This document shows, one piece after another, positions 2,536 through 30,827 of a stretch of DNA of 64,000 bases. Below the pieces are notes generated by a model. The model ran no database searches. It was not told the DNA's origin and worked only from the letters and a program-made list of their open reading frames with translations. Within the stretch, counting starts at the first letter, position 1, and the number at the start of each line of letters is the position of its first letter. The stretch lies in the NCBI RefSeq assembly GCF_900291975.1, contig NZ_OMPN01000001.1, forward strand, positions 2,804,501 to 2,868,500, in the 5' to 3' direction. This stretch comes from Agathobaculum massiliense (GTDB lineage Bacteria > Bacillota > Clostridia > Oscillospirales > Butyricicoccaceae). A program made the position numbers and the translations under genes.

Positions 2536-5500
2536 TTATGGGTCTGTTTCCGAGGTGGTTCCATCAGAAAGAACGAATTCCACCTTGTTGGCGCCGTCTT
2601 CTTCAATGGGGTTCCCGTCAGAATCCCTTTTATATTGCAGGGTAAAGGTGATGGAACCGTCGGTTCGCATGTAGCCGGACTTATTGGAGAAGTAGCCGCC
2701 ATTCCCTTTTCCGTCTGTCGGCGTGATCGTGAAGGAGTCGCCTACAACAAAGTTATTGAACTTGACGCCCAATGAACGGGTGGGGTTCAGGTTCGACAGC
2801 TTCACATATTCTACGGAATCAGGGAAAAGGTCACTGTTTTTACCGACTGTGGGAATGTAGGCCTCCGGTGTACTCATACTGTCATCGAATACATAAAGCT
2901 CGGTGTCGAAGTTGATGGTAACTGTTCCGTTATACCAATGCTTATTGTTGCTGTAGGTGGAGGTCGTGTTCATTGATTTTACCAGTGGGCCGCTGCGGTT
3001 CACCTTCTGTATATTTTTTACCACGCGGAACACGGGCAGGCCGCCCAGCTCATTCTTTGCAGCGACGATGAACAGATATTTTGTCGGTTCGTTTTGCAGC
3101 TGATCTTTGTCGATCACGGTTTCGGTGCCGCTGAAATTCCGCTCCGCGCCGTTTTGGTCAGGTGCGGGGGAGGCGTCGCTGCCGCCCTGCATGATTTCCC
3201 ACAAGGCTTCCTTGAAAGCGGTGGAGTCTTTATAGCCGCCAATTGACGTATCAGAGGACCACTTGTCGAACGCATCGCTCTCCATCATTTCCAGAGCAGT
3301 TTTGCCATTGATTTGGGTTGAAAACAGGGGCGGATAGCCGCTCTGTGTTGCCTGCGGATAGAGAAGCCAATGCACTTCCGCTTCGACGCTGGTTTGTCCG
3401 GCAGCGGGCTTGATGGAAAAGGTTGCCTGACCATCACCGGTGGAATTGGCGGTCAGCACAGGCGGAACCACATCGCTGGTGTTGAATTTGTAGCACCAAA
3501 CAGGGGAGGGATCCTTATACGAGCCTTTCAGAACAAAATAGATATAGTACTCCTGATTGGGCTGGAGGTCCTCAACGGTAAAGCTGCCCTGGCCTGTACC
3601 GCCGTAACGAACCTTGCCGGTTTGATACCCATTGGCCGGGGTGTAATTGGATGGGCTCATGATATTCTGGGTGGTGGGGGTTCTGATACCCTGCTCCTTC
3701 CGCTTACCAGGCTCCGGTAATGCAGCCTCGGCGTCGCCGTCGTCCTTAAATTGGCCGATATCTATAATAAGACCAGGATCATCCAGATCAGGCTCCAGAC
3801 GGTTGACAGGGGCGACAACGTAATATACGTCCGCCTCGCGGTCGAGCATGTAATCGACGCGTGTCAGGGAATCACCGGGAGCCACACGGGGATACCCCTG
3901 CATGAACTGGGGCGCGTTCTGGTTGACGCGGCGCACATCAATTGTGAAATCGGATGGGTTGCCGATCGAGGCCAGCTTCTTCTGTTGGATCACATAGCTG
4001 TCCCAGAAGGACTGCTCGACGATTCCACCGGAAGTCAGGTTTTGTAGTTCGTTGGGACTGCCTGCAACGCAGTACATATACAGGTTAACGGTCGCATCCC
4101 ACTTGTTACGATCCCTGTCCAGATTGATGGACGTAAATTCGACTGCGTATTCATATCCCTGGACCAATTGATTGAGCTGCGGATAGTCAGTAGGCTCAAG
4201 ACCCTCGGCGCGGTTCAGGCTGGCCGCTGTCCACTTTTCATCGGGTGTTTTATTGATGGTGAATTCTACCGGCGTGCCGACCGTATCCGTTACGATTTCC
4301 CAAGCGGGCTTTTCAGCTGAAAGGTCACGGCGGTACAGCTTGAACGAAATCGTGGTATCCGAGGCGATCAGCAGGTCGTATTTTGTTCCATCGGGTACAT
4401 TTTCTGTGGAATTGGCATAGGGGACCATGGAGAACGAAGCTTCAATGCCGGCGGGATTAAAACCGTCGACATCCGCGGCGGTATACTGCAATTTATTAAA
4501 GTCCACCTGCGCATCCAGGACACGGAATTCCTGGGACTTGGTGTTGGCCGGCAGGACATTGTTAGAGGAATCCGTGATGTTGTTCAGTACAAACTGGTAG
4601 GTCGCGCCGCTCTGCAGCTTCAGTGCAGCGTTGGCAAAGGTGACCTCGGTCTGCCCTTCCTCGTTCAGCTTGACCGTTATATTCTGACGTCCGTCTGGAC
4701 CGAGCTCAAGCTCCTGCTTGCGCTGGTCGGTGGGATTATCCATGTTGTTGAATGTAAACATTCCCCGGATAATATCTACCCACTTGATCGGGGTCTGGTC
4801 TTTATCGCCGGCAAGCGTAAAGTCGTTTTTGCCGGAGGCAAACATTTCGGACAGGGACATTTGTGTCTCGCGGCTGTAAATGTCCTCGCTGAATACAAGG
4901 GTGACGTCGGTATTGGCCAGCGGGATGCCCTCGTCATTGGCCTGAGAGAAGCGCAGCTCAACCAGCTCCGGCGCGCTGCTGTCCAGCGTTTTCGCGTTCA
5001 GGATAGTCGCGATTTCAGACAGATTGCCCGCCGTATCCTCAGCGACAAAGTAGATATCGTAGGCGGTTTCCGCGTCAAGGCCGCTCATGTTGAAGGAAGC
5101 GACCGCGTCCTGCTTCGCGTTGAACGAGCCGCTTTTGAGCGCATACATGCCACCCTTAATCTGTAGCTTTTTGTCGAGCGCCTGCGCCTCCTCGTCCAGA
5201 TCGGGGTTAGACTGCGGATAATTTTCCGTACCGTGCTTTACGATTGCCCAGTACACCTTACCGTCTTCATTGATCATGGATTCGCCGGTCAGCGCCTTGG
5301 CGTCGATTTTACTGATTCGGGGATAGTTGGTGCGGAATACAGGGGGCGTGCGGTCGGCGGTTTTTACCGATATTTTTTTGACCGCCGAATCGTTAACGGT
5401 ATCGGTCAGGAAGAAGTATGCGTCATACTCGGTTACCTCGGCAAGCGCGTCCCTGGCGTACTTATCCTTGTTGCCCATCAGGATGTTGTCTTCCTCGCTG

Positions 5501-14834: not shown

Positions 14835-15287
14835 ATGGAAGAATTGCTGGGACTGCTGGACCGTCTGACGGTGATTTTAGGCGAGCTGACTGCTGTGCAG
14901 AAGGACGTTGCGGCCTCTGTCCATGAGGACGATCTGATACGTCTGGGCGAGTGCATGAAAAAAGAACAGGCGTTGTCGCTCAGCCTGCGCAATATTGACC
15001 AGAAGCGGCTCAGGCTACAGCAGCAAATGGGGCTGGAAAAAATAACGCTGTCTGCTTTGCCGGAACAGATAGATTCCATGGAGCTGCGTGAAAAGGTAAA
15101 AGATGCGGCAGAGCGGTTGTCCGCACAGTACCGGATCATGCAGAGTGCGGCCGAGGTGGCCCGCTCGGCGCTGGAATGCAGCCTGCATCAGGTGGAAAAT
15201 ATGATTGCAGGGCTTGGGCTTGACCCCGAGCATGTGAAGGATCATACGATAACAACGGGCGGACCGCATACAGATTTTCGAGCATAA
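14835..15287 (+). CDS. flgN: FlgN-family flagellar chaperone
   Basis: 150 residues, almost entirely helical, with the FlgN-like pattern E-x-L-x-x-L-L-D-R-L-T at the start. FlgN binds the hook-associated proteins FlgK and FlgL before export, and both follow directly. An ATG at 14826 overlaps the flgM stop, but the GGAGG at 14821-14825 touches it. The ATG at 14835 is nine bases from that site and was chosen. Confidence 0.85.
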   Translation: MEELLGLLDRLTVILGELTAVQKDVAASVHEDDLIRLGECMKKEQALSLSLRNIDQKRLRLQQQMGLEKITLSALPEQIDSMELREKVKDAAERLSAQYRIMQSAAEVARSALECSLHQVENMIAGLGLDPEHVKDHTITTGGPHTDFRA

Positions 15288-17747: not shown

Positions 17748-17765
17748 CAGAGAGGAGTTATAGTG

Positions 17766-18791
17766 ATGTTTCGGGTTACAACAAACGGTACGCTTCGTAC
17801 CTATCGGGGAAACTTGGCAAAAGCAAGCTGGAATCAGTACTATGCGATGAACACTGTTTTGACGGGACGGCGGTTCAACTCCTTTTCGGAAGATCCGGCG
17901 CTGGCGGCGCAGTCGTTTCGTGTGCATGCGGCCTCTGCGCGTAATGAATTTCAGAGAAAGACCAGCGAATCTGCGATTCACAAATTTGAGTCGGCGCAGG
18001 CGAGCCTGCAGGAGATCGCAGATCAGTACAATACAGCGCTTGACCAGGCCGAACAAGGCGTGGACGGCTCCAAATCAAGCGCCCGTGAGGAGATTGGAAA
18101 AACCCTGCTGAATACTGCGGAAGGCATGGTCAAAACGCTGAACGCCAAATATGGGGATAAGTTTGTGTTTGCCGGCGCAAACGGCGAGGAGGCTCCGTTT
18201 GAACTCAAGGATGGGAAGCTGTATTTCCGCGGGATAGACATGGCGACACAGGATCCGGATGAGCTGGCGAAGCTGGAGGAGTGGAGCAAGGAGTCGACCT
18301 ATGTGGATATAGGCTTGGGCCTGCAACTGGATGAGAATGAACAGGTCATTCCCTCCACCGCATTCAACACGGCGATTTCCGGCGCAGGGCTGCTGGGCTT
18401 CGGTACCTATGAGGATGGTTCACCTAAGGATATTATTTCGCTGACAGCGCAGTTGGGGCAGCTTCTGGTGGACTCGGCTGCGGATGGAAGCGATAAGATG
18501 AATGAAGCAGATCAGGAAAAGGCAAACGCGCTGTTTGATAAGATGCAGGAGTCTTACTCCGCGTTTAACTCCAACCGGGCTGAGCTGGACACGAAGGCTC
18601 AGTTTTTAAAGTCTAATGACACCCGCCTGACCTCTACCGGGGATACGCTCACAGAGCAATATGAGTCGCTTGACAGGGTGGATTTGGCGGATGCGTTGAG
18701 TACGTTTGTGTATGCCCAGTACAGCTACAATGCTGCGCTGCGGGTTGGCAACAATGTGCTGTCGCAATCGTTTATTGACTATATGTCTTAA
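17766..18791 (+). CDS. flgL: Flagellar hook-associated protein 3 FlgL
   Basis: 341 residues. Flagellin-like N-terminus (R-V-T-T-N-G-T-L-R-T-Y then L-T-G-R-R-F-N-S-F-S-E-D-P) and C-terminal helix (A-D-A-L-S-T-F-V-Y-A-Q-Y-S-Y-N-A-A-L). FlgL forms the second ring of the hook-filament junction. The ATG at 17766 is eight bases after AGAGGAG; an adjacent GTG at 17763 is less well spaced. It follows flgK by 18 bases. Confidence 0.95.
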   Translation: MFRVTTNGTLRTYRGNLAKASWNQYYAMNTVLTGRRFNSFSEDPALAAQSFRVHAASARNEFQRKTSESAIHKFESAQASLQEIADQYNTALDQAEQGVDGSKSSAREEIGKTLLNTAEGMVKTLNAKYGDKFVFAGANGEEAPFELKDGKLYFRGIDMATQDPDELAKLEEWSKESTYVDIGLGLQLDENEQVIPSTAFNTAISGAGLLGFGTYEDGSPKDIISLTAQLGQLLVDSAADGSDKMNEADQEKANALFDKMQESYSAFNSNRAELDTKAQFLKSNDTRLTSTGDTLTEQYESLDRVDLADALSTFVYAQYSYNAALRVGNNVLSQSFIDYMS

Positions 18792-18832
18792 GCATAAGGG
18801 TAAGAGTAAGAGCAAAAGAGGTGTACAGCGCT

Positions 18833-19435
18833 ATGGAACGGTTGATAGAGATTAAAAATGTTCCGATTGAGTTGGAAATGAAAGTAAACCATGCGCGGCT
18901 GGAATACAAAAGGTCGCAGGTGGATCTGGAGGTTTCCCGCAGCAAGGGAGGTCTGCAGATACGCAGCAAGCCCATCCGGCTGAACTTGGATACGTTTGAA
19001 GCGCGTAATTCCATTACACCAACCGCAATGCGCAGTATTGAACAGGCTGCACAAAAAGGGCGTGAGCAGGTTTATGAAACGACCGGCACCTATGCCAAGC
19101 ACGGAAAGCTTCTGCTTCAGGCAAAAATTGGCCAGCAATTGATCACACAGTTCGCGATGGAATCCCAGCAGGTCAATACGGATGTTGCCATGACATTTCT
19201 GCCCAGCACAGGTCCGGATATTTCCTGGGATGCAGGGGAGCTGAACATCCGCTATGAGATGGATAAGCTGAATTTTGACTGGCGCATTGGAAATGGGGAT
19301 GTGGAGTTTATACCGGGTGATATTGAGTTTACCGTAACGCAGCGTCCGGATGTCATTATCAAATATATTGGCGGGCCGGTCTATGTGCCTCCCTCTGCAG
19401 AGCCGGGATACGAGCCGTTGGATGAAACGGTTTAA
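18833..19435 (+). CDS. DUF6470 (YviE-like) flagellar-operon protein
   Basis: About 200 residues, resembling the DUF6470 family found between flgL and fliW in Firmicutes, as yviE is in Bacillus. It opens with an I-P-I-E-L-E-M-K-like strand, has a helical middle, and its beta-rich C-terminus contains W-R-I-G and G-D-I-E-F. The function of the family is not established. The ATG at 18833 lies nine bases after AGAGGTG; the GTG in that sequence is read here as part of the SD rather than as the start. Confidence 0.85.
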   Translation: MERLIEIKNVPIELEMKVNHARLEYKRSQVDLEVSRSKGGLQIRSKPIRLNLDTFEARNSITPTAMRSIEQAAQKGREQVYETTGTYAKHGKLLLQAKIGQQLITQFAMESQQVNTDVAMTFLPSTGPDISWDAGELNIRYEMDKLNFDWRIGNGDVEFIPGDIEFTVTQRPDVIIKYIGGPVYVPPSAEPGYEPLDETV

Positions 19436-19449
19436 CTAAGGAGACTGGA

Positions 19450-19896
19450 ATGAAAATTGAAACCAAATATTTTGGAACAATACAGGTAGACGAGCAAACA
19501 CTGCTGTTTTTCCCCAATGGTATCTTTGGTTTTGAACAGGAAAAAAAGTTTGTCCTCCTCCCTTTTGCCAAGGAGGAGGATTTCCTGTTGTGCCTGCAAA
19601 GCGTGGAAACGCCGTCGCTTGCCTTTACCGCACTGAACCCTTTTATGCTGCTGCCAACCTATCAGCCCAAACTGGCAAAGTCTGAGCTGCTTCAAATGCA
19701 GGTAGAGAAGAGCGAGGATTTGTGCTATTATACGCTTTGCAGGGTTAACAAGCCGGTGTGGAAGAGCACGGTAAACTTGAGATGCCCCATTGTCCTGAAC
19801 GACCGGACGAGACAGGCCTGTCAGGTGATACTGGATGAATATGATATGCGGTGTCCTCTGGACTCTATAGGACGACAGGGGGGAGCGCAATGCTGA
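19450..19896 (+). CDS. fliW: Flagellar assembly factor FliW
   Basis: 148 residues of the FliW fold (T-K-Y-F-G-T-I-Q-V start, F-P-N-G-I-F-G-F-E near 22-30). FliW binds CsrA allosterically and releases hag mRNA from repression; flagellin competes for FliW. Its final codons overlap the csrA start (ATG at 19890 inside the end of fliW), so the antagonist and its target are translationally coupled. Confidence 0.95.
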   Translation: MKIETKYFGTIQVDEQTLLFFPNGIFGFEQEKKFVLLPFAKEEDFLLCLQSVETPSLAFTALNPFMLLPTYQPKLAKSELLQMQVEKSEDLCYYTLCRVNKPVWKSTVNLRCPIVLNDRTRQACQVILDEYDMRCPLDSIGRQGGAQC

Positions 19897-20135
19897 TACT
19901 GCAGCGGAAACAAGGACAGTCCTTTATGATCGGCCAGGATATTACAATTACTGTTCAGGAGATCGGGGCAGGACGTGTCCGCCTGTCGATCGATGCGCCG
20001 CGCAATGTATCGGTTCTGCGGGAGGAATTGGTAGCAGCGCGCAGGGAGAACGCAGCCGCCGCAAGGGAGGAAGTTTCTCCCTTGCAACTATTGCAACTGC
20101 TGAAACAGGATAATTCATCTAAGCAGGAGAGGTGA
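19890..20135 (+). CDS. csrA: Translational regulator CsrA
   Basis: 81 residues. The core M-L-I-L-Q-R-K, then I-T-V-Q-E-I and the RNA-binding segment R-L-S-I-D-A-P and V-L-R-E-E-L are all present. The C-terminal tail is longer than the minimal family and Ala/Glu/Gln-rich, consistent with the FliW-binding extension of Gram-positive CsrA. CsrA blocks ribosome binding on flagellin mRNA. It overlaps fliW by seven bases. The flagellin gene itself is not in the window. Confidence 0.95.
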   Translation: MLILQRKQGQSFMIGQDITITVQEIGAGRVRLSIDAPRNVSVLREELVAARRENAAAAREEVSPLQLLQLLKQDNSSKQER

Positions 20136-22571: not shown

Positions 22572-23441
22572 ATGCGGGACATTGAGGTTGTATGGACCTT
22601 TATGCTGGATTATATGCGTGGATGGGGGATACGAGAGCATAGCCATGACTTTTACCAGATGTACTATGTAGTTTCAGGGGAAGCGGATATGCTGTTGGAC
22701 AGGCAGAAAGTCCATTTATATCCCCATCTCTGCGTTGTAATTGAACCGGAGCAGCTGCATGAACTGCCTGTGATCTCAAGCGGGAGGCTGCGGATCATAG
22801 ATACAAAATTTTATCTCCATAATTCCAATACCATGGATGAGGTGCATTGCCTGCCACGCTGTTTTGAAATTGAGGACAATGAATTTGAAACCGCACTTTT
22901 AGGAGCGCGAAACGAGTGGCAGTCCAATGCACGGTACAGTAGAGAAATGGCAAATGCTCTTTTTGAGCAGGCATTCTATATCTATATCCGTAAAAACGGC
23001 TCTTTTGTTGAAAGGAATTCCTTTTCACGTGCGATTGACCACATCATAGCCAACCTGACTGGCGTGGAAAAACAAATTGCCGACTATGTTTCCGTGCATT
23101 TTGCAGAGGATTTCACACTGGATCAGTTGGCAGAATCCCTGAAATACAATAAAAACTACCTCTGCAAGCTGTTTAAGCAGGCAACGAATTTTACGATTAT
23201 CCATTATGTGAATTATTTAAGGGTTTGTAGGGCTTATGAGCTGATCTGCTATTCCAGTTATAGCTTGAATGATATTAGCGTATTGTCAGGCTTTTCCAGT
23301 GTGCATTATTTCACATCTGTATTTAAAAAAGTAACGGGTAAAACGCCGGGGGAAATGCGCGATTTGGAAAAAGATGCCATGTACACAGCGATACAGCAGC
23401 ATGGAAAGTTCAGCTATCGTTATTATAAAGAGCCGGAATAG
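22572..23441 (+). CDS. AraC-family transcriptional regulator
   Basis: 289 residues. An N-terminal cupin ligand-binding domain (about 1-150; H-S-H-D-F-Y-Q-M near residue 23) precedes a C-terminal AraC double helix-turn-helix (about 170-270; F-T-L-D-Q-L-A-E-S-L, then N-Y-L-C-K-L-F-K-Q and the second-helix motif S-V-H-Y-F-T-S-V-F-K-K). The ATG follows GGGGAGG by about eight bases. It sits upstream of, and in line with, the dehydrogenase-aldolase-TTT operon, separated by a terminator. I infer that it senses the operon's substrate and activates the 23684 promoter. Confidence 0.9.
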   Translation: MRDIEVVWTFMLDYMRGWGIREHSHDFYQMYYVVSGEADMLLDRQKVHLYPHLCVVIEPEQLHELPVISSGRLRIIDTKFYLHNSNTMDEVHCLPRCFEIEDNEFETALLGARNEWQSNARYSREMANALFEQAFYIYIRKNGSFVERNSFSRAIDHIIANLTGVEKQIADYVSVHFAEDFTLDQLAESLKYNKNYLCKLFKQATNFTIIHYVNYLRVCRAYELICYSSYSLNDISVLSGFSSVHYFTSVFKKVTGKTPGEMRDLEKDAMYTAIQQHGKFSYRYYKEPE

Positions 23442-23447
23442 GGAAAG

Positions 23448-23481
23448 AGAGTACACATGGTTTGCATGGTGTACTCTTTTT
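23448..23481 (+). terminator. Intrinsic terminator after the AraC regulator
   Basis: AGAGTACAC pairs with GTGTACTCT (nine perfect pairs plus an inner ATG/CAT), followed by TTTTTG. It starts seven bases after the regulator stop codon. Confidence 0.85.
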
Positions 23482-23683
23482 GTTTGCAAGAAAAGCGGAT
23501 AGGTTTGATAAAAATATACAAAATGGGCGTTTGAATATTTGGCAACAAAAGTTAAGATAGTGAAAAGGAAGTTCAATATTATGCAAAGACAAATTGCCTG
23601 TAAACTGTTATATTATTGGCATAAGAGATAACTGTTTCTCAAAAATAAAGAAAAATATAGCAAAAAAGCATAATGAAAGCAAT

Positions 23684-23711
23684 TTGACAGTATCGTGCGA
23701 TTATCTTTAAA
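23684..23711 (+). promoter_or_regulatory. Candidate sigma-A promoter of the dehydrogenase/aldolase/TTT operon
   Basis: A perfect -35 TTGACA, 16 bases, then TTTAAA (4 of 6), preceded by about 40 bases of A-rich sequence that could act as an UP element. The start codon is 40 bases downstream. The rest of the 309-base gap holds only the upstream terminator and AT-rich sequence in which an AraC operator could lie; I could not define one. Confidence 0.55.
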
Positions 23712-23750
23712 AATGAATATTTTATAAAGGCTAAAGGGAGGGTCTGAAAA

Positions 23751-24812
23751 GTGGATGATCATATTCGTTTGTGCGATGATAAAAAAATTGTAGCTTTTAT
23801 TGCAGACTTATATGAAAAAGCCGGCGTAGACAGGGAAACAGCGGAATTGCATGGCGTTGGACTGGTAGAGGCCAGCTTGCGCGGCGTGGATTCACACGGA
23901 ATTATGCGCACAGCGGCTTATTTTGAACGCTATCGCAAAAAAGCAATTAATGTGAAGCCGGATATTAAGGTGGTAGCCGGAGAAAAGGCATTTGTGGTTA
24001 TGGATGCCGATAATGCTTCGGGCTTTGTTGCTTCCCGATATGCTATGGAGCATGCAATTATGCTGGCTCGAGAGTACCATATAGCGGCAGTATGCGTGAA
24101 AAATAGCAATCATTTTGGCGCCGCAGCTCTGTATGCACAAATGGCGGTGGATGCCGGTATGGTCGGTATGGCGTCAACTAATGTTCGGCCTAATATCACG
24201 GCGCCGGGAGCAAAAGGGCGCGTTGTTGGTAATAACCCTTTCGCCATTGGGATCCCCACTTATGACGATTACCCGTTTATGCTGGATATGGCACTTTCTG
24301 TTGTTGCGGGTGGGAAACTGAAAATGGCGATACGCAAAGGAGAAAAAATTCCGTTGGGCTGGGCGACGGATGTGGAAGGAAACCCGACAGATGATCCGAA
24401 GAAAGGTTTTGATGGTTACTTCCTTCCGGTAGGAGGGTTCAAAGGATTGGGAATCGCTTATGTGATTGATATGCTCTGTGGTGTAATGACTGGCGGTGCA
24501 TTTTCGGATCATATCAAGAGCATGTACGCAGAGCCAGATGATCCAAGCGGGACCTGTCACATGTTTATTGCGGTAGATTGTGATGCAATTATTGGAAAGG
24601 AGGAGTTAAGAGCGCGTATTGCAGAATACCGGCAGTATATACGGTCTATCCCTGTGGTGGGGGATGCGCCGCCGTTGAGTTTTCCGGGAGAGATTGAAGA
24701 AAACTGCAAACGAGAACGGCAAAAAAACGGTATCCCGCTGCCGTACAGTATTTACAGAGAGCTGGAGGCATATGCGGAGCGCTATCAAATACCGTTTTCT
24801 ATTGAAAAATGA
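23751..24812 (+). CDS. Ldh_2-family NAD(P)-dependent 2-hydroxyacid dehydrogenase
   Basis: 353 residues of the malate/L-lactate dehydrogenase (Ldh_2) family, which is unrelated to Rossmann lactate dehydrogenases. Typical motifs are S-L-R-G-V-D-S-H-G near 43-51 (catalytic His), N-S-N-H-F-G-A-A-A-L-Y near 120, N-P-F-A-I-G-I-P and F-K-G-L-G. Members include malate, ureidoglycolate, 2,3-diketogulonate and (R)-sulfolactate (ComC) dehydrogenases, so the substrate cannot be read from sequence. It starts at GTG nine bases after AAAGGGAGGG. First gene of the seven-gene operon. Confidence 0.88.
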   Translation: MDDHIRLCDDKKIVAFIADLYEKAGVDRETAELHGVGLVEASLRGVDSHGIMRTAAYFERYRKKAINVKPDIKVVAGEKAFVVMDADNASGFVASRYAMEHAIMLAREYHIAAVCVKNSNHFGAAALYAQMAVDAGMVGMASTNVRPNITAPGAKGRVVGNNPFAIGIPTYDDYPFMLDMALSVVAGGKLKMAIRKGEKIPLGWATDVEGNPTDDPKKGFDGYFLPVGGFKGLGIAYVIDMLCGVMTGGAFSDHIKSMYAEPDDPSGTCHMFIAVDCDAIIGKEELRARIAEYRQYIRSIPVVGDAPPLSFPGEIEENCKRERQKNGIPLPYSIYRELEAYAERYQIPFSIEK

Positions 24813-24830
24813 AGAAAGGATTTTAGGTCT

Positions 24831-25625
24831 ATGCTGCGTTTAGATGAAACATTTCATAATCCTGTTAAAAAGCTGCTGAAAGAGAAGAAAAAGATCCTTG
24901 GCGCATGGTTGCAAATGGCAAGCCCTTATGCGGCAGAAATATTTGCTAAGGCTGGGGTAGATGTTTTAATGATTGATATGGAGCATGCGCCGAATGACCC
25001 ATTGAGTATGCTGGAACAACTCAGGGCAATGGGGCGCTTCAGCTCAATTCCATTTGCCCGCGCGCCTTGGAACGACTTGGTAACGATTAAGCGCATGCTG
25101 GATGTCGGGTTGTATGGCCTGCTCATCCCCTATGTCAACACAAGAGATGAGGCGGAACGAGCGGTTCAGGCATGTAAATATCCTCCGGAAGGGATGCGTG
25201 GCATAGCGCCTTCGCCGCGTGCCGGTGGCTTTGGGATGAATTCACAGAACTATCTGGCGCATGCCAACGATGAAATAGTGGTTATGACCGCTGTAGAAAC
25301 AGGAACGGCAGTCAAGAATCTGGATGAAATCCTGCAGGTGGAAGGACTGGATGGAATATTTATTGGCCCGATGGATTTAGCCACTTCAATGGGGTATTTT
25401 TGCAATCCGTCTGCGCCAGAAGTACAGGAAGCAATACATACGATTGAAGAAAAGGTGTTTGCGAGTGGAAAGTTTTTAGCCACTGTTGCAGGAAATTTTG
25501 AGGCGGCAAAAAAACTATATGACCGTGGCTACAGTATGGTGGTTGCCTTTGCGGACGGCGGCACTTTGGGACGAGTAGCGCGCGAGCAAGTCGAGCTATT
25601 CCGGACTGCTTATCCGGAACGATAA
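24831..25625 (+). CDS. HpcH/HpaI-family (class II) aldolase
   Basis: 264 residues, the usual length. Family motifs are visible: I-D-M-E-H (catalytic His near 48), R-A-P-W (substrate Arg), V-E-T-G (metal Glu) and G-P-M-D-L-A (metal Asp). These enzymes cleave 2-keto-3-deoxy or 4-hydroxy-2-keto acids to pyruvate and an aldehyde with a divalent metal. In this operon it would cleave the keto acid made by a neighbouring dehydrogenase, or condense in reverse; this is inference. It follows the Ldh_2 gene by 18 bases. Confidence 0.88.
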   Translation: MLRLDETFHNPVKKLLKEKKKILGAWLQMASPYAAEIFAKAGVDVLMIDMEHAPNDPLSMLEQLRAMGRFSSIPFARAPWNDLVTIKRMLDVGLYGLLIPYVNTRDEAERAVQACKYPPEGMRGIAPSPRAGGFGMNSQNYLAHANDEIVVMTAVETGTAVKNLDEILQVEGLDGIFIGPMDLATSMGYFCNPSAPEVQEAIHTIEEKVFASGKFLATVAGNFEAAKKLYDRGYSMVVAFADGGTLGRVAREQVELFRTAYPER

Positions 25626-25661
25626 TATGGAAAGAGACAAACTAAAAAAGGAGGCAAAAAA

Positions 25662-26639
25662 ATGAAACGGTTATTATCAGCTTTGTTGGTCGGTGCGCTT
25701 TGTACGGGTGTATTAAGTGGCTGCGGCTCAAATGAGAAGCCGAGTGCGGGGGATAGCAGCGACTGGCCTTCACGGCCAATCACGGTTATAGTACCATATG
25801 GAGCAGGAGGGGATACGGATTTTAATGCGCGTGCCTACCTCGAAGGGCTGGGCAGTGAGTTAGGGACATCGGTTGTAGTCAGTAACGTTACTGGGTCCGG
25901 CGGCTCAATTGCAAGTCGTCAGGTAAAGGATTCCGATCCGGATGGATATACGGCGCTTTTTTTCCATACAGCAATGAATGTTAACCAGGCGATTGGCACA
26001 GCGGACTTCGGACTGGATGATTTCAAGTTGTCGGCAGTGGTCGGCAAGGGGCCTGGCGAGATTATTGTAGCGCGGAAAGATGCGGGCTACAATAACCTGG
26101 AAGAGCTGAAAGAGTACACGCAACAGCATCCGGGTGAGGTAAAGATGGGTATAGAAACCGGTACAATGGTGCATATCAACGGAAAGCAGATGCAGGATGC
26201 CGGTATTGATGTATCCTTTGTGGATGCGGGCGGCGCTTCCGATCGTGTTGCAGCGTTGGCGGGTGGACATATCGATTTAATTATCAACGCATATGGCACG
26301 GTTAAAGATTATCTGGAAACCGGTGAGTTTGTTGCCTTGGGACAGGTGAACGCAGAGCGCAGCGAGGGCTTTCCGGAAATTCCGACCGCTATAGAGCAAG
26401 GATTTGACATTCAACTTGAAAAATATTATTTCTTCGCTTTCCCTAAGGATACTCCGGATGAGATTGTACAGAAATTTGCGGATGCCTGCAAGGTTGTGAG
26501 TGAGCAGGAGGACTACGCGACCAGCATTATGGAGGCTTACCGCCAGACGCCGTTTTACGCAGATGCCGAGGAGGGGCGGGCATTGCTCGATTCCACCAAG
26601 GAGATTATTGATAAATACGCAGCAGAGTTGCTTTCTTAA
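25662..26639 (+). CDS. TTT transporter solute-binding lipoprotein (TctC family)
   Basis: 325 residues. A lipoprotein signal peptide ends in L-S-G-C with Cys21 as the lipidated residue. The mature part has the TctC signature W-P-S-R-P-I-T-V-I-V-P-Y-G-A-G-G-D-T-D near 35-53. It captures a carboxylate outside the membrane and delivers it to TctA/TctB. A perfect AAGGAGG precedes the ATG. A hairpin after the gene (26650-26680) may protect the mRNA so the binding protein is made in excess. TctC proteins bind very diverse carboxylates, so the ligand is unknown. Confidence 0.93.
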   Translation: MKRLLSALLVGALCTGVLSGCGSNEKPSAGDSSDWPSRPITVIVPYGAGGDTDFNARAYLEGLGSELGTSVVVSNVTGSGGSIASRQVKDSDPDGYTALFFHTAMNVNQAIGTADFGLDDFKLSAVVGKGPGEIIVARKDAGYNNLEELKEYTQQHPGEVKMGIETGTMVHINGKQMQDAGIDVSFVDAGGASDRVAALAGGHIDLIINAYGTVKDYLETGEFVALGQVNAERSEGFPEIPTAIEQGFDIQLEKYYFFAFPKDTPDEIVQKFADACKVVSEQEDYATSIMEAYRQTPFYADAEEGRALLDSTKEIIDKYAAELLS

Positions 26640-26649
26640 AGTGGATGCG

Positions 26650-26680
26650 GGATAGGGAACGGCAAGTCCGTTTCCTATCC
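26650..26680 (+). other. Intercistronic RNA hairpin between tctC and tctB
   Basis: Thirteen consecutive pairs (26650-26662 with 26668-26680, one G:T) around a five-base loop, with no T-run after it. It is probably an mRNA stabiliser or partial terminator separating the binding-protein gene from the permease genes. Confidence 0.6.
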
Positions 26681-26736
26681 TTGCAGAAATAAGATAAAAA
26701 TAAGCTGGACGTCTAACTGGTAAGGAGGCGGATTTG

Positions 26737-27225
26737 TTGAGGAAATATAAGGATGCAATTGTTGGTGGACTTGTCATTCTTGCGGCGGTTGGCTTGTTTG
26801 CGGCGAGCCTTACGATACAATCACTTTCGCTTAACCTAATAAAAGCGGATTTCTTCCCGAAGATGGATGCGATTCTGCTCGGCATACTGGGAATAGCGCT
26901 GCTTTGGGATGGATTGAGGAAAGCGGGACAGGCGTCGGAGGAATCAAAAGGCGAGGAGAAAAGCGGGATGTCGCAGGGTACTCGCTGCATGATTATAACG
27001 CTGGCGTTGATTGCAGTATATATTTTCTGTCTGGAGCCGATCGGATTCCTGCTATCGACCTTTGTTTACCTGGTCATACAGATGCTGGTGTTAGCGGATG
27101 AGTCACACCGGAAAAAGAAAGATATTCTGCTGTTCGTGATATTGTCGCTTGTTGTATCAGCCGGTATTTACCTTCTGTTCACACGTGTATTTTACCTGAT
27201 GCTGCCAAGCGGATTGTTGGGTTAA
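26737..27225 (+). CDS. TTT transporter small membrane subunit (TctB family)
   Basis: 162 residues with four hydrophobic segments (near 8-28, 35-55, 85-110 and 125-155), the TctB layout. A charged loop of Lys/Glu separates the second and third. It supports the large permease TctA. The start is a TTG. Two adjacent TTG codons exist at 26734 and 26737, and the second is eight bases after AAGGAGG and was chosen. tctA follows 12 bases later. Confidence 0.85.
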   Translation: MRKYKDAIVGGLVILAAVGLFAASLTIQSLSLNLIKADFFPKMDAILLGILGIALLWDGLRKAGQASEESKGEEKSGMSQGTRCMIITLALIAVYIFCLEPIGFLLSTFVYLVIQMLVLADESHRKKKDILLFVILSLVVSAGIYLLFTRVFYLMLPSGLLG

Positions 27226-27237
27226 AGGAGGCGTCGC

Positions 27238-28752
27238 ATGTTATCTTTGATCGCTACAGGGTTTGCAGAGGTCTGTAACCCGCTGTGCATTGCTTTGATT
27301 GCAGGCGGTGTCCTGCTTGGTATTATTTTTGGATCGATCCCAGGGCTTTCGGCAACCATGGCGGTGGCGCTCTGCCTGCCAATGACCTATGGTTTGGAGC
27401 CTATCGCAGGCATGGCATTGCTACTCGGCCTGTATATCGGCGGTATTTCGGGCGGCCTGGTCGCGGCAATATTGCTGCGTATCCCCGGTACACCGGCTTC
27501 GGTGGCAACCTGCTTTGACGGTTACCCGCTGGCCGCGAAAGGGCAGGCCGGTAAGGCGCTGGGAGTGGGTATCTTTTTCTCTTTCATTGGTACGTTGCTT
27601 GGCTTGGCTGTGTTGATGTTTATTGCACCATCGCTGGCAAGCGTTGCGTTGAAGTTCAGCTATTATGAATATTTTGCTGTAGGTGTTTTTTCTATTTCCA
27701 TGATGGCCAGCCTGATCAGCGGGTCGGTTGTCAAGGGACTGGTCAGTGGTGCAATTGGCTTGGCGTTTGCCATGGTTGGCGCGGCACCGATTGATGGCAT
27801 CCCGCGTTTGACGTTTGGTTTTCATGCGCTGGATGCCGGGTTTGATATTCTGCCCGTCCTGATTGGTTTGTTTGCAATTTCTGAGATTATCAAGGCTGCA
27901 AAGGAAAAGGGTAAGCCGCAGGGAAAGGTATTGCAGGACTTCAAAATTAAGGGCTTCGGCTTCTCCTTTGCGGAATTTAAGAGCCAGATCGTGAACCTGT
28001 TCCGTTCTGCGGCAATCGGAATAGGTATTGGCATTTTACCGGGCATCGGAGGAGGAACATCCAATATTCTGGCCTATACAGCGGCAAAGAATCAATCCAA
28101 AACACCTGAAAAATTTGGTACAGGCATTATTGATGGCATTGTTGCCTCCGAAACTGCCAATAACGCTTCAATCGGAGGTGCGCTGGTGCCATTGATGACA
28201 CTGGGCATACCTGGGGACACTGTGACCGCTATGCTTTTGGGTGGCCTGATGATTCATGGCCTGAACCCAGGACCGCTTCTGTTTCAGAATAACGGCCCGC
28301 TGGTATATGGTATTTTTGCGGCCTGTCTGATTGCAAATGTGTTTATGCTGTTGATGGAGTACTTAGGCATTAAGGTATTCGCACGCGTATTGACCGTGCC
28401 AAAGCACATACTTCTGCCGATTATTATGGTTCTATGCGTTGTCGGTGCGTTTGGTGTGAATAACCGCCTGTTTGATGTTTGGGCAGTCCTGTTCTTTGGT
28501 ATTGTTGCGTATTTGCTGGAAAAAGGGGGCTTCCCGCTGCCGCCAATCATTCTCGGATTCATACTGGGTCCAACGATAGAAACCAATCTCCGCCGCGGGC
28601 TGATGCAGTCAGAGGGAAGCATCGCTCCGTTTTTCACTCATCCGATCAGCTTGGCATTTCTGATTATTACGATGATTGTTATTGTCCTTGCAGTTCGTAA
28701 AGAATTAAGAGCGCGGCGTAGCAATCGGGTGGAAAAAGAAGGGAAATCGTAA
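27238..28752 (+). CDS. TTT transporter large permease (TctA family)
   Basis: 504 residues and about a dozen membrane segments. TctA motifs are clear: G-S-I-P-G-L-S near 31-37, a second G-I-G-I-L-P-G-I-G-G-G repeat near 260, and the A-A-I-L-L-R-I-P-G-T-P segment. TTT systems are secondary, ion-coupled carboxylate importers that need the TctC binding protein. The gene begins 12 bases after tctB, with GGAGG upstream of the ATG. Confidence 0.94.
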   Translation: MLSLIATGFAEVCNPLCIALIAGGVLLGIIFGSIPGLSATMAVALCLPMTYGLEPIAGMALLLGLYIGGISGGLVAAILLRIPGTPASVATCFDGYPLAAKGQAGKALGVGIFFSFIGTLLGLAVLMFIAPSLASVALKFSYYEYFAVGVFSISMMASLISGSVVKGLVSGAIGLAFAMVGAAPIDGIPRLTFGFHALDAGFDILPVLIGLFAISEIIKAAKEKGKPQGKVLQDFKIKGFGFSFAEFKSQIVNLFRSAAIGIGIGILPGIGGGTSNILAYTAAKNQSKTPEKFGTGIIDGIVASETANNASIGGALVPLMTLGIPGDTVTAMLLGGLMIHGLNPGPLLFQNNGPLVYGIFAACLIANVFMLLMEYLGIKVFARVLTVPKHILLPIIMVLCVVGAFGVNNRLFDVWAVLFFGIVAYLLEKGGFPLPPIILGFILGPTIETNLRRGLMQSEGSIAPFFTHPISLAFLIITMIVIVLAVRKELRARRSNRVEKEGKS

Positions 28753-28764
28753 AAGGAGTGCCGC

Positions 28765-29736
28765 ATGAGAAAAGTATATATCAGTGAACCGATCCATGAA
28801 GATGCGATTCGCCTGCTGGAGCGATCATTTGAGGTTGTGCAGGGCGGCGGCGCTGCGGATATTGCCGGACGCGCATACGGTTGCGAAGCGATACTGGTCC
28901 GCGTCGCCAGAATAACAGAGGAAATAATGGATGCTCTACCCGGACTGCGCGTGATTGCAAAGCACGGCATAGGCGTGGATAATATTGATGTACAGGCAGC
29001 TACAGCGCGTGGCATACTGGTGGTCAATGCGCCGACAGCAAATATACATGCCGTTGCAGAGCATACAGCGACGCTTATAATGGCGCTGCTGAAAAATTTG
29101 GTCTTTCTGGATGCAATGACCCGCAACGGTGGTTTTGAAAAACGAAATCAGCATATTGTGACTGAATTGCGGGGGAAGAAGGTCGGGTTTATTGGCTTTG
29201 GTCGAATCGCCCGTTTGGTACGGCAAAAGCTGTCCGGCTTTGAGGCTTCCTTTCTTGCTGCCGATCCTTTTATGGAACCAGAACAGGCAGAAGCGTTTGG
29301 TGTGACACCGGTAGATATGGAAAAACTTTTGGAACAGGCTGATGTAATTAGCCTGCATACACCGTTGACACCGGAAACACACCATTTGATAGATCGGAAT
29401 GCGCTGGAAAGGATGAAAAGAAGCGCGTTTCTGATTAATGCCGCCCGTGGGGCGGTTGTAGATGAACAGGCGTTGGTGGAAGCGCTACAGGCGCGTCGGA
29501 TTGCCGGCGCTGCGCTTGATGTATTTGAAGAAGAGCCACCGGCGGAGAACTGCCCGCTTTGGGGGTTAGACAATCTCATTGTGTCTCCGCATAACGCGGC
29601 GCTGAGCGATGCAGCGATGCGAGCAATGGGGATGGACAGTGCACAGGGGATTTTGGACTGTTTGGAGGATCGGCGTCCCGCGTATATGGTGAACGCCGAG
29701 GTATGGCACTGTGGAAAAACCAAAAGAGAGGTATGA
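28765..29736 (+). CDS. D-2-hydroxyacid dehydrogenase (SerA-like family)
   Basis: 323 residues. Rossmann motif G-F-I-G-F-G-R-I-A near 138-146. The catalytic Arg (N-A-A-R-G), Glu (E-E-E-P) and His (S-P-H-N-A) of the D-isomer-specific family are all present. Family members reduce or oxidise 3-phosphoglycerate, glyoxylate, hydroxypyruvate or (S)-sulfolactate (SlcC). It is short and lacks ACT domains, so it is not a regulated biosynthetic SerA. Its place between tctA and the transaldolase gene points to catabolism of an imported hydroxy acid. Confidence 0.88.
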   Translation: MRKVYISEPIHEDAIRLLERSFEVVQGGGAADIAGRAYGCEAILVRVARITEEIMDALPGLRVIAKHGIGVDNIDVQAATARGILVVNAPTANIHAVAEHTATLIMALLKNLVFLDAMTRNGGFEKRNQHIVTELRGKKVGFIGFGRIARLVRQKLSGFEASFLAADPFMEPEQAEAFGVTPVDMEKLLEQADVISLHTPLTPETHHLIDRNALERMKRSAFLINAARGAVVDEQALVEALQARRIAGAALDVFEEEPPAENCPLWGLDNLIVSPHNAALSDAAMRAMGMDSAQGILDCLEDRRPAYMVNAEVWHCGKTKREV

Positions 29737-29739
29737 CAA

Positions 29740-30783
29740 ATGAAGGCGAATTATTTCCAACGTGTACAGGCACAGACACCAACCCGGTTCTGGATTAATA
29801 ACGTTACGAGAGAGCAGGCGCGTCTGGCAATCGAAGCAGGGGCGGTCGGCTGTACTCAGAACCCTGCATATACATGGAAGATGATGGATGCTCCGGAGGA
29901 AAGGGAATACGTTTGTTCTTTGCTGGATCCCATTTTACAGCAGGAGGCAGATGATACGCAGGCATTGGTTCAGCTCCAGCGTGCGTTGGTAGAACGTGTG
30001 GCTCGACAGTTCATGCCATTATATGAAAAAAGTGGCGGCGATTTAGGATTGGTCAGCATACAGGGCGATCCTTTCCATGAGGATTGTGATACGATTGTGT
30101 GCTACGCACGCTATAACTGCTCTGCCTCCCCCAATATTATTGCGAAGATACCTGTGACAGAGGAGGGGCTGAAAGCGATCGAGGTGGTGCTGCAGGAAGG
30201 AATATCAGTTAACGCTACCGAAGTACTAAGCGTACGTCAGGCGCTGGATGTCTGCCGGGTCTATAACCGTATTACAGAAGGGGTGGCCAAAAAACCACAT
30301 ATTTATTTCTCCCACATTACAGGTATTTTTGACCAATATCTGTCTGAACAAGTTGCGCGTGAGGAAATTGAAGTCTGTCCGGACGCATTGTGGCAGGCAG
30401 GTATAGCGGCGGCGAAAAAAACCTATTGGATGACGAGGGAGGTATGCCCTAAGATGGGATTTATCGGCGGCGGCGCCCGTGGGCTTCAGCATTTTACCGA
30501 AATGGTGGGCGCGGATGCCTGTATAACAATTAACTGGAAGGGAACAGCGGATCGCTTAATTGAACAGGATATGCCTGTCGTACAGCGGTTCTTCATGCCT
30601 ACCCCCGCATCCGTCATTGAGGAGTTGCGGGCCAAGCTGCCCGATTTTCGCAAGGGATACGATGTGGATGCTCTGGAGCCGTCCGAATATGAGGATTTTG
30701 GGCCGGTCGTATTGTTCCGGTCGGGGTTTGAAACGGCCTGGAAAAACGCGCTGGAATTTATAGCTGAGCGACGTAGGGGATAG
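29740..30783 (+). CDS. Transaldolase-family protein, last gene of the TTT operon
   Basis: 347 residues with a TIM-barrel transaldolase core. The Schiff-base lysine lies in A-K-I-P-V-T-E-E-G (near residue 133), followed by A-I and G-I-S-V-N-A-T-E, which parallels the G-I-x-x-N-x-T of transaldolases. The N-terminus has a family-like (T/C)-Q-N-P motif (C-T-Q-N-P). It is far longer than the roughly 215-residue fructose-6-phosphate aldolase type. The gene starts four bases after the dehydrogenase stop and ends at a strong bidirectional terminator. A transaldolase in a carboxylate-uptake operon is unexpected; the substrate is unknown. Confidence 0.8.
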   Translation: MKANYFQRVQAQTPTRFWINNVTREQARLAIEAGAVGCTQNPAYTWKMMDAPEEREYVCSLLDPILQQEADDTQALVQLQRALVERVARQFMPLYEKSGGDLGLVSIQGDPFHEDCDTIVCYARYNCSASPNIIAKIPVTEEGLKAIEVVLQEGISVNATEVLSVRQALDVCRVYNRITEGVAKKPHIYFSHITGIFDQYLSEQVAREEIEVCPDALWQAGIAAAKKTYWMTREVCPKMGFIGGGARGLQHFTEMVGADACITINWKGTADRLIEQDMPVVQRFFMPTPASVIEELRAKLPDFRKGYDVDALEPSEYEDFGPVVLFRSGFETAWKNALEFIAERRRG

Positions 30784-30827
30784 ACACAAAAAACACCGCG
30801 CGTAAGCACGGTGTTTTTTGTGTCTAT
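30780..30827. terminator. Bidirectional intrinsic terminator
   Basis: A 19-bp perfect inverted repeat (30780-30798 with 30809-30827) whose arms carry six-base A and T runs, so it can work for the transaldolase gene (+) and the dacF-like gene (-). Confidence 0.9.

Follow-up and report, generated by a model that had tools for sequence, protein, structure and literature searches.

The 64,000-nucleotide window of Agathobaculum massiliense DNA analysed here (contig NZ_OMPN01000001.1, positions 2,804,501 to 2,868,500) holds an AraC-type regulator gene and, behind it, seven plus-strand genes spanning positions 23751–30783. These constitute a genuine, sparsely distributed catabolic operon, in which a TTT importer and a further dehydrogenase join a recurring core of an HpcH aldolase, an Ldh_2 dehydrogenase and a transaldolase-like enzyme. 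The eight-gene set named by the initial annotation is real, and all eight proteins have their main Pfam domain above the curated cut-off (open reading frame listing and Pfam scan). Of greatest interest is the transaldolase, which is, by its sequence, a member of an uncharacterised and widespread clade. Our preferred interpretation, which we offer tentatively, is that the operon is inducible and serves the catabolism of a polyhydroxylated monocarboxylic acid, where cleavage by HpcH would be linked to sugar phosphates by the transaldolase.

The seven genes encode, in order, an Ldh_2 2-hydroxyacid dehydrogenase of the malate/L-lactate/sulfolactate type (23751–24812, GTG start, Pfam 366 bits), an HpcH/HpaI aldolase with an SPRA..(F/Y)G motif (24831–25625, 146 bits), the solute-binding protein TctC (25662–26639, 113 bits), the small membrane subunit TctB (26734–27225, TTG start, 84 bits), the large membrane subunit TctA (27238–28752, 504 bits), a D-isomer-specific 2-hydroxyacid dehydrogenase resembling PGDH and glyoxylate reductase (28765–29736, 205 and 106 bits for PF02826 and PF00389), and the transaldolase-like Schiff-base enzyme of the TAL_FSA type (29740–30783). 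The gaps between them are 18, 36, 94, 12, 12 and 3 bp.

The transaldolase-like protein falls in the transaldolase/FSA superfamily by its PF00923 match, its fold and its Schiff-base lysine K136; R247 is also present. It is not a canonical TalB-type transaldolase, as the position of TalB E96 is occupied by Q108 and that of D17 by N20, and both substitutions are found in all 40 aligned rows (the window and 39 of 80 clade loci). The Glu position was mapped via solved transaldolases and TalB, and the Asp position via the Neisseria transaldolase and FsaA, bypassing TalB, which aligns poorly around it. Gln at the Glu96 position is shared with fructose-6-phosphate aldolase (FSA). The position of TalB Phe178, which we take to be that of Tyr131 in FSA, is Ile193 in the window protein. 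According to the available text of one study, the FSA water triad consists of Gln59, Thr109 and Tyr131 (PMC13259622); the triad is incomplete here, with Gln and Thr present and Ile193 at the third position. The solved relatives of the protein are long transaldolases, all of them weak matches (best E = 8.9e-11).

In the other operon-bearing genome, that of a sister species (G401), the transaldolase-like gene is the sole PF00923 match, and the other PF00923 match in the window's own genome (G000) scores 37.6 bits; neither genome has a second strong transaldolase. An ordinary housekeeping transaldolase was considered and rejected on the altered active site, scores far under the NCBIfam cut-offs and the PF00923 results for the two genomes. 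A viral or mobile origin was also considered, and a single transaldolase scan of viral contigs matched nothing. The active-site residues had initially been described as intact in all three enzyme types. By inspection this holds for Ldh_2, HpcH and the D-2-hydroxyacid dehydrogenase, if the residues have the roles that we assume for them, but not for the transaldolase.

We found 146 relatives of the transaldolase, and 80 of them (loci L112–L191) are covered by the context counts below. These 80 are spread over Clostridia, spirochaetes, Chloroflexi, Planctomycetes, Bacteroidetes and other groups. By tblastn, HpcH genes were detected in 6 of the 80 loci (L115, L129, L131, L132, L143 and L147) and Ldh_2 genes in 5 (L115, L131, L133, L143 and L147), compared with approximately 0.04 HpcH genes expected from the class density when a mean genome size of 2.7 Mb is assumed. 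The HpcH and Ldh_2 proteins of those loci, which lie in Clostridia and spirochaetes, belong to the window's own subfamilies. The HpcH proteins are 53–64% identical to that of the window, and among the remaining genomes of a 391-genome class sample only G263 (59%) exceeds 40%. The transaldolase adjoins HpcH behind TctC/TctA in L129 and L132, and the gene order in L115 is transaldolase–Ldh_2–HpcH. An HpcH profile search of 248 genomes of one spirochaete class yielded 16 clade members in 12 genomes; the 16 clusters contain a FucI-like gene in 11 cases and a transaldolase in 5, with Ldh_2, creatininase-like, SDR, SMP30, URO-D-like and TRAP genes recurring among them.

Neighbouring genes were also clustered across 83 loci (the 80 plus L027, L087 and the window) and named by profile scan or by reading. 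The resulting counts are lower bounds, with 74 of the 83 transaldolase genes falling in one cluster, and include at least 22 GntR regulators, at least 15 TRAP DctM proteins, at least 9 TctA, at least 7 class II aldolases, at least 7 Ldh_2 and at least 6 HpcH. The clade is often found near an Asp/Glu-racemase-like protein (at least 26 of 83 loci) and near BKACE (at least 14 of 83).

The composition of similar clusters suggests that the transaldolase can be replaced. Ten clusters combine HpcH with the transaldolase: the window (positions 15001–39000 were covered by the tblastn neighbour and substitute searches), L087, L115, L129, L132, L131, L133 together with L218 (two contigs of one genome, assumed to be a single cluster), L143, L147 and L219. 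None of the ten contains GAPDH-like, PGK, aldehyde:ferredoxin oxidoreductase (AFOR) or DUF1537 genes in the stretches searched. By comparison, such substitutes are found in 7 of 8 clusters that have HpcH with a FucI-like gene or a close Ldh_2 and lack the transaldolase. GAPDH-like and PGK genes occur together in L220, L221, L222 and L224 (the GAPDH match of L224 is 37%), AFOR lies inside or beside the cluster in L220 (12440–14326) and L223 (11404–13299), DUF1537 is present in L088, and DUF1537 with a class II aldolase in L089, where the HpcH identity is only 38%. The eighth cluster, L225, ends just after HpcH and shows no substitute. The difference between 0/10 and 7/8 corresponds to P = 2.5e-4 by Fisher's exact test, and in spirochaetes alone (0/5 versus 5/6) to P = 0.015, values that ignore relatedness and the collection of loci with transaldolase or HpcH as bait. 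Left out of this count were L226–L230, HpcH loci with neither transaldolase, FucI nor close Ldh_2 (L226 is a 5.4-kb contig with an Ldh_2 of 35%); none of the five contains a substitute, and their inclusion changes the count to 7/13. Because 7 of the 8 transaldolase-free clusters carry a substitute, we regard the transaldolase as one of several enzymes that can stand in for one another in handling the aldehyde presumably produced by HpcH. GAPDH-like and PGK genes also stand beside HpcH in L092; the arrangement is seen in both spirochaete and clostridial clusters, and L222 additionally holds a lactate-racemase-like (LarA) gene.

These results lead us to propose the following scheme, in which the individual reactions, the direction in which the transaldolase works and the class of the substrate are all inferred from family knowledge. 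TctCBA would take up a sugar acid, most likely a polyhydroxy 2-hydroxy or 2-oxo acid, perhaps 3-deoxy. Ldh_2 and the D-2-hydroxyacid dehydrogenase would interconvert its 2-hydroxy and 2-oxo forms, an arrangement by which either C2 epimer could be accepted and NADH possibly balanced. HpcH would then split a 2-oxo-4-hydroxy acid, giving pyruvate (or hydroxypyruvate) together with a short hydroxyaldehyde, perhaps glyceraldehyde, and the transaldolase-like enzyme would move a dihydroxyacetone unit that joins the unphosphorylated aldehyde to the sugar-phosphate pool, for example by converting fructose 6-phosphate and glyceraldehyde to fructose and glyceraldehyde 3-phosphate. With transfer of dihydroxyacetone to the aldehyde, an aldehyde-specific kinase would not be needed. 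The initial annotation had outlined a similar route of import, oxidation, HpcH cleavage and entry of a product through the transaldolase; the outline, with its conjectural order of steps, fits the gene content, the recurring Ldh_2/HpcH/transaldolase association and the substitutes, but the ordinary transaldolase that it assumes is not supported. More speculatively, the clade as a whole could represent a class of enzymes not yet described, whose active site mixes transaldolase and aldolase features and which would serve as a kinase-free gateway from unphosphorylated sugar-acid fragments to glycolysis and would be exchangeable with GAPDH/PGK-like pairs, AFOR, or a kinase and class II aldolase.

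Beyond the limits of the Fisher values, several observations weigh against this scheme. HpcH is not within reach in 74 of the 80 transaldolase loci, and outside the HpcH clusters the 80 loci show class II aldolase 7 times, AFOR twice and DUF1537 once. GAPDH/PGK and AFOR could serve a different aldehyde, and DUF1537 with a class II aldolase is better suited to ketose phosphates than to aldehydes. With Gln108, the enzyme could be an aldolase that sets dihydroxyacetone free. In spirochaetes, Ldh_2 and HpcH are accompanied by SMP30, SDR, FucI and creatininase genes; none of these is present in the window operon, and its substrate may therefore differ. Lastly, a search for glycerate kinase of the PF02595 class, with other classes not sought, found none in the window's own genome, which weakens the hydroxypyruvate variant.

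One alternative places the transaldolase upstream of HpcH, where it would cleave an unphosphorylated keto acid (HOCH2-CO-CHOH-CHOH-R-COOH) by transferring dihydroxyacetone to glyceraldehyde 3-phosphate, with fructose 6-phosphate as the product; the aldehyde acid released would be processed by HpcH and the dehydrogenases. We consider this unlikely, if well worth keeping in view. It has a precedent in sulfo-TAL, described in the available text as catabolism by a transaldolase in the absence of a substrate kinase in anaerobic Firmicutes (PMC12890257). The clostridial inositol clusters L036, L037, L038 and L040 also speak for it: in them a transaldolase relative (27–29% identity) stands beside IolB, IolD and IolE. 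IolC exceeds its curated cut-off in none of the five genomes with such relatives (the inositol cluster was seen in four of the five), which looks as if the relative had replaced the kinase and the aldolase, and in L089 DUF1537 and a class II aldolase occupy the place of the transaldolase. However, the inositol-cluster transaldolases are distant at 27–29%, PfkB kinases under the IolC cut-off exist in those genomes, and a role in handling aldehydes is the simpler reading of the GAPDH-like/PGK and AFOR substitutes. As observations in their own right, the four inositol clusters may encode a kinase-free inositol pathway, a parallel to the kinase-free role proposed for the window enzyme; probes for class II aldolase and DUF1537 gave no match in the seven distant-transaldolase loci (L034 and L036–L041), and the titles, abstract beginnings and passages of the open-access literature consulted describe no transaldolase in inositol clusters.

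A second alternative, which we regard as rather improbable, gives the D-2-hydroxyacid dehydrogenase a different role. Ldh_2 would oxidise an aldonate at C2, HpcH cleavage would yield an aldehyde and hydroxypyruvate, which the D-2-hydroxyacid dehydrogenase would reduce to D-glycerate, closing the redox balance. The PGDH/glyoxylate-reductase-like character of the dehydrogenase agrees with this, as do the adjacency of HpcH and the D-2-hydroxyacid dehydrogenase in L091, L095 and L230 and their occurrence in the same cluster in L108 and, with one extra HpcH gene in between, in L229. Hydroxypyruvate use by the window HpcH is, however, a prediction, and the PF02595 result given above counts against this variant.

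L108 itself (C2:2106000–2125900) lies outside the window in the same genome and contains paralogs of Ldh_2 (32%), HpcH (33%) and the D-2-hydroxyacid dehydrogenase (40%) with RraA-like and amidohydrolase genes and, by reading, a TRAP importer and a split transketolase, the latter at the place of the window's transaldolase. The three paralogs also stand together in G401 (L109) and in G408 (L110).

The Ldh_2 protein has sulfolactate dehydrogenase as its best NCBIfam match, at 244 bits against the cut-off of 500 for the L-sulfolactate dehydrogenase equivalog NF040650. Pfam detects no SuyAB sulfo-lyase in the operon; GD_AH_C, the family to which we take SuyB to belong, has four matches in G000 and none in G401, which carries the same operon. 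Two of the matches in G000 are proteins with frames of about 400 aa, possible lyase subunits. A sulfolactate-type operon, in which TctCBA would import 3-sulfolactate or another C3 hydroxy acid of this kind, with dehydrogenases of opposite stereospecificity acting as a racemase via the 2-oxo acid in the manner of SlcC and ComC, is very improbable. There is a precedent in the slcHFG-slcC-comC cluster of Taurinivorans muris, where (S)- and (R)-sulfolactate dehydrogenases accompany a TTT importer (PMC10507020, available text), but we rejected this as the principal interpretation on the low Ldh_2 score, the absence of a sulfo-lyase or sulfite gene from the operon, the absence of GD_AH_C matches from G401, and the lack of any role for HpcH and the transaldolase. 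Two of the GD_AH_C matches (G000:C2:612877–613596 and 1283839–1284558) have the same score and the same frame length, as if they stemmed from a recent duplication; the first is part of a second TctCBA cluster (L111), together with a gene read as DapA-like.

The exact operon was seen only in the window's own genome and G401 among the genomes searched, and its parts recur. Of 24 other genus members, one, G401 (locus L087), has all eight genes in this order, at 71–94% identity (TctA 93.6%); with 2 of 25 genus genomes, the window's own included, wide conservation of the gene order is not supported. The D-2-hydroxyacid dehydrogenase version is found in the same two genomes among the 25, other matches reaching at most 43%. 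Among the 391 class genomes, members of the transaldolase clade with at least 50% identity occur in the window's own and 6 others, and no genome except the window's own combines a close HpcH with a close transaldolase. The surroundings of the loci in these six genomes and in G263 (L027–L032 and L088) combine only some of the operon's parts; wide flanks covered 7 of the 34 class HpcH matches besides the window's own, and the other 27 were seen to about 1.5 kb. Open reading frame calling in GC-rich loci picked wrong frames (for example for HpcH and TctC in L087), and gene presence therefore rests on tblastn. The initial annotation knew of no characterised pathway with exactly this gene set, and none is described in the open-access titles and abstract beginnings consulted.

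No operon enzyme reaches any NCBIfam cut-off among the matches listed, and this includes Ldh_2, which belongs to its family by PF02615 (366 bits against a cut-off of 38.8) and has malate and L-sulfolactate dehydrogenases as solved relatives. HpcH is a member of the HpcH/HpaI superfamily by PF03328 and by conserved Glu, Asp, Arg and His positions (E156, D182, R77 and H52, invariant in nine rows of the clade alignment). Its solved relatives are HpaI, GarL and YfaU, and it is neither HpaI nor GarL proper (235 of 369 and 227 of 407 bits at the equivalog cut-offs). The solved relatives of the D-2-hydroxyacid dehydrogenase are McyI, PGDH and glyoxylate reductase. The adjacent TctA, TctB and TctC genes identify a TTT importer by Pfam, and solved relatives of TctC in the PDB are Bug-type binding proteins.

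The AraC-type regulator gene (22572–23441, plus strand; AraC_binding/cupin and HTH domains) has an 86.7% identical copy at the same place in L087. Since 309 bp separate it from Ldh_2 and include its own terminator-like hairpin with a T run (23444–23481, plus strand; stretch −19.2 kcal/mol, z −4.5), it is probably a transcription unit apart from the seven genes. A promoter-like site with TG before the second hexamer (AAGACA-17-TATATT, 23586–23614, plus strand) precedes Ldh_2. The scanned region contains 13 promoter-like matches against 14.0 expected by chance, so that the match alone carries no weight; however, when the intergenic regions are aligned, the sister species is seen to keep the AAAGACAAA and TGTTATATTAT boxes. 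A strong terminator-like hairpin (30784–30823, −25.4 kcal/mol, z −7.5), with an A tract on one side and a T tract on the other, is common to the operon and the convergent Peptidase_S11 gene. The initial description of a tightly spaced unit behind one promoter and closed by a terminator fits the gaps of 3–94 bp and the hairpin, its promoter being a putative one. In L087 a 3-hydroxyacyl-CoA-dehydrogenase-type gene (3376–4308) follows the transaldolase on the same strand, where the window has the terminator and Peptidase_S11. The tctC–tctB gap (95 nt in the fold, −31.8 kcal/mol, z −4.1) contains a hairpin with no T run (26646–26685, plus strand), of a kind that could lift the level of the binding protein over the membrane subunits. 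Upstream genes (17763–20135), presumably flagellar-type FlgL, FliW and CsrA from their translations, are unrelated to the operon.

If our interpretation is correct, sugar-acid breakdown would be able to feed into glycolysis through transfer of a three-carbon unit, with no phosphorylation at this point, the logic of sulfo-TAL would extend beyond sulfosugars, and a broad unnamed transaldolase subfamily of many gut and other anaerobic bacteria would have a role. The replacement pattern yields direct, testable predictions. Compared with FsaA and TalB, the enzyme has the same fold, the Schiff-base lysine, the Gln of FSA and the Arg228 of TalB, and differs in having Asn for the catalytic Asp and Ile193 in place of Phe178 of TalB. 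The non-phosphorylative 2-keto-3-deoxy sugar acid pathways of GarL and YfaU share an HpcH superfamily aldolase and the sugar-acid-like setting of the clade relatives, whereas the window operon has no dehydratase and possesses two 2-hydroxyacid dehydrogenases and a transaldolase-like partner. With slcHFG-slcC-comC, as far as its available description goes, the operon shares a TTT importer and two 2-hydroxyacid dehydrogenases, but it lacks a sulfo-lyase, adds HpcH and the transaldolase, and has an Ldh_2 far under the sulfolactate dehydrogenase cut-off. In sulfo-TAL, with its sulfofructose transaldolase, the published parts available likewise describe a Schiff-base transaldolase in catabolic use with no substrate kinase, although the type of transaldolase and the gene set are different.

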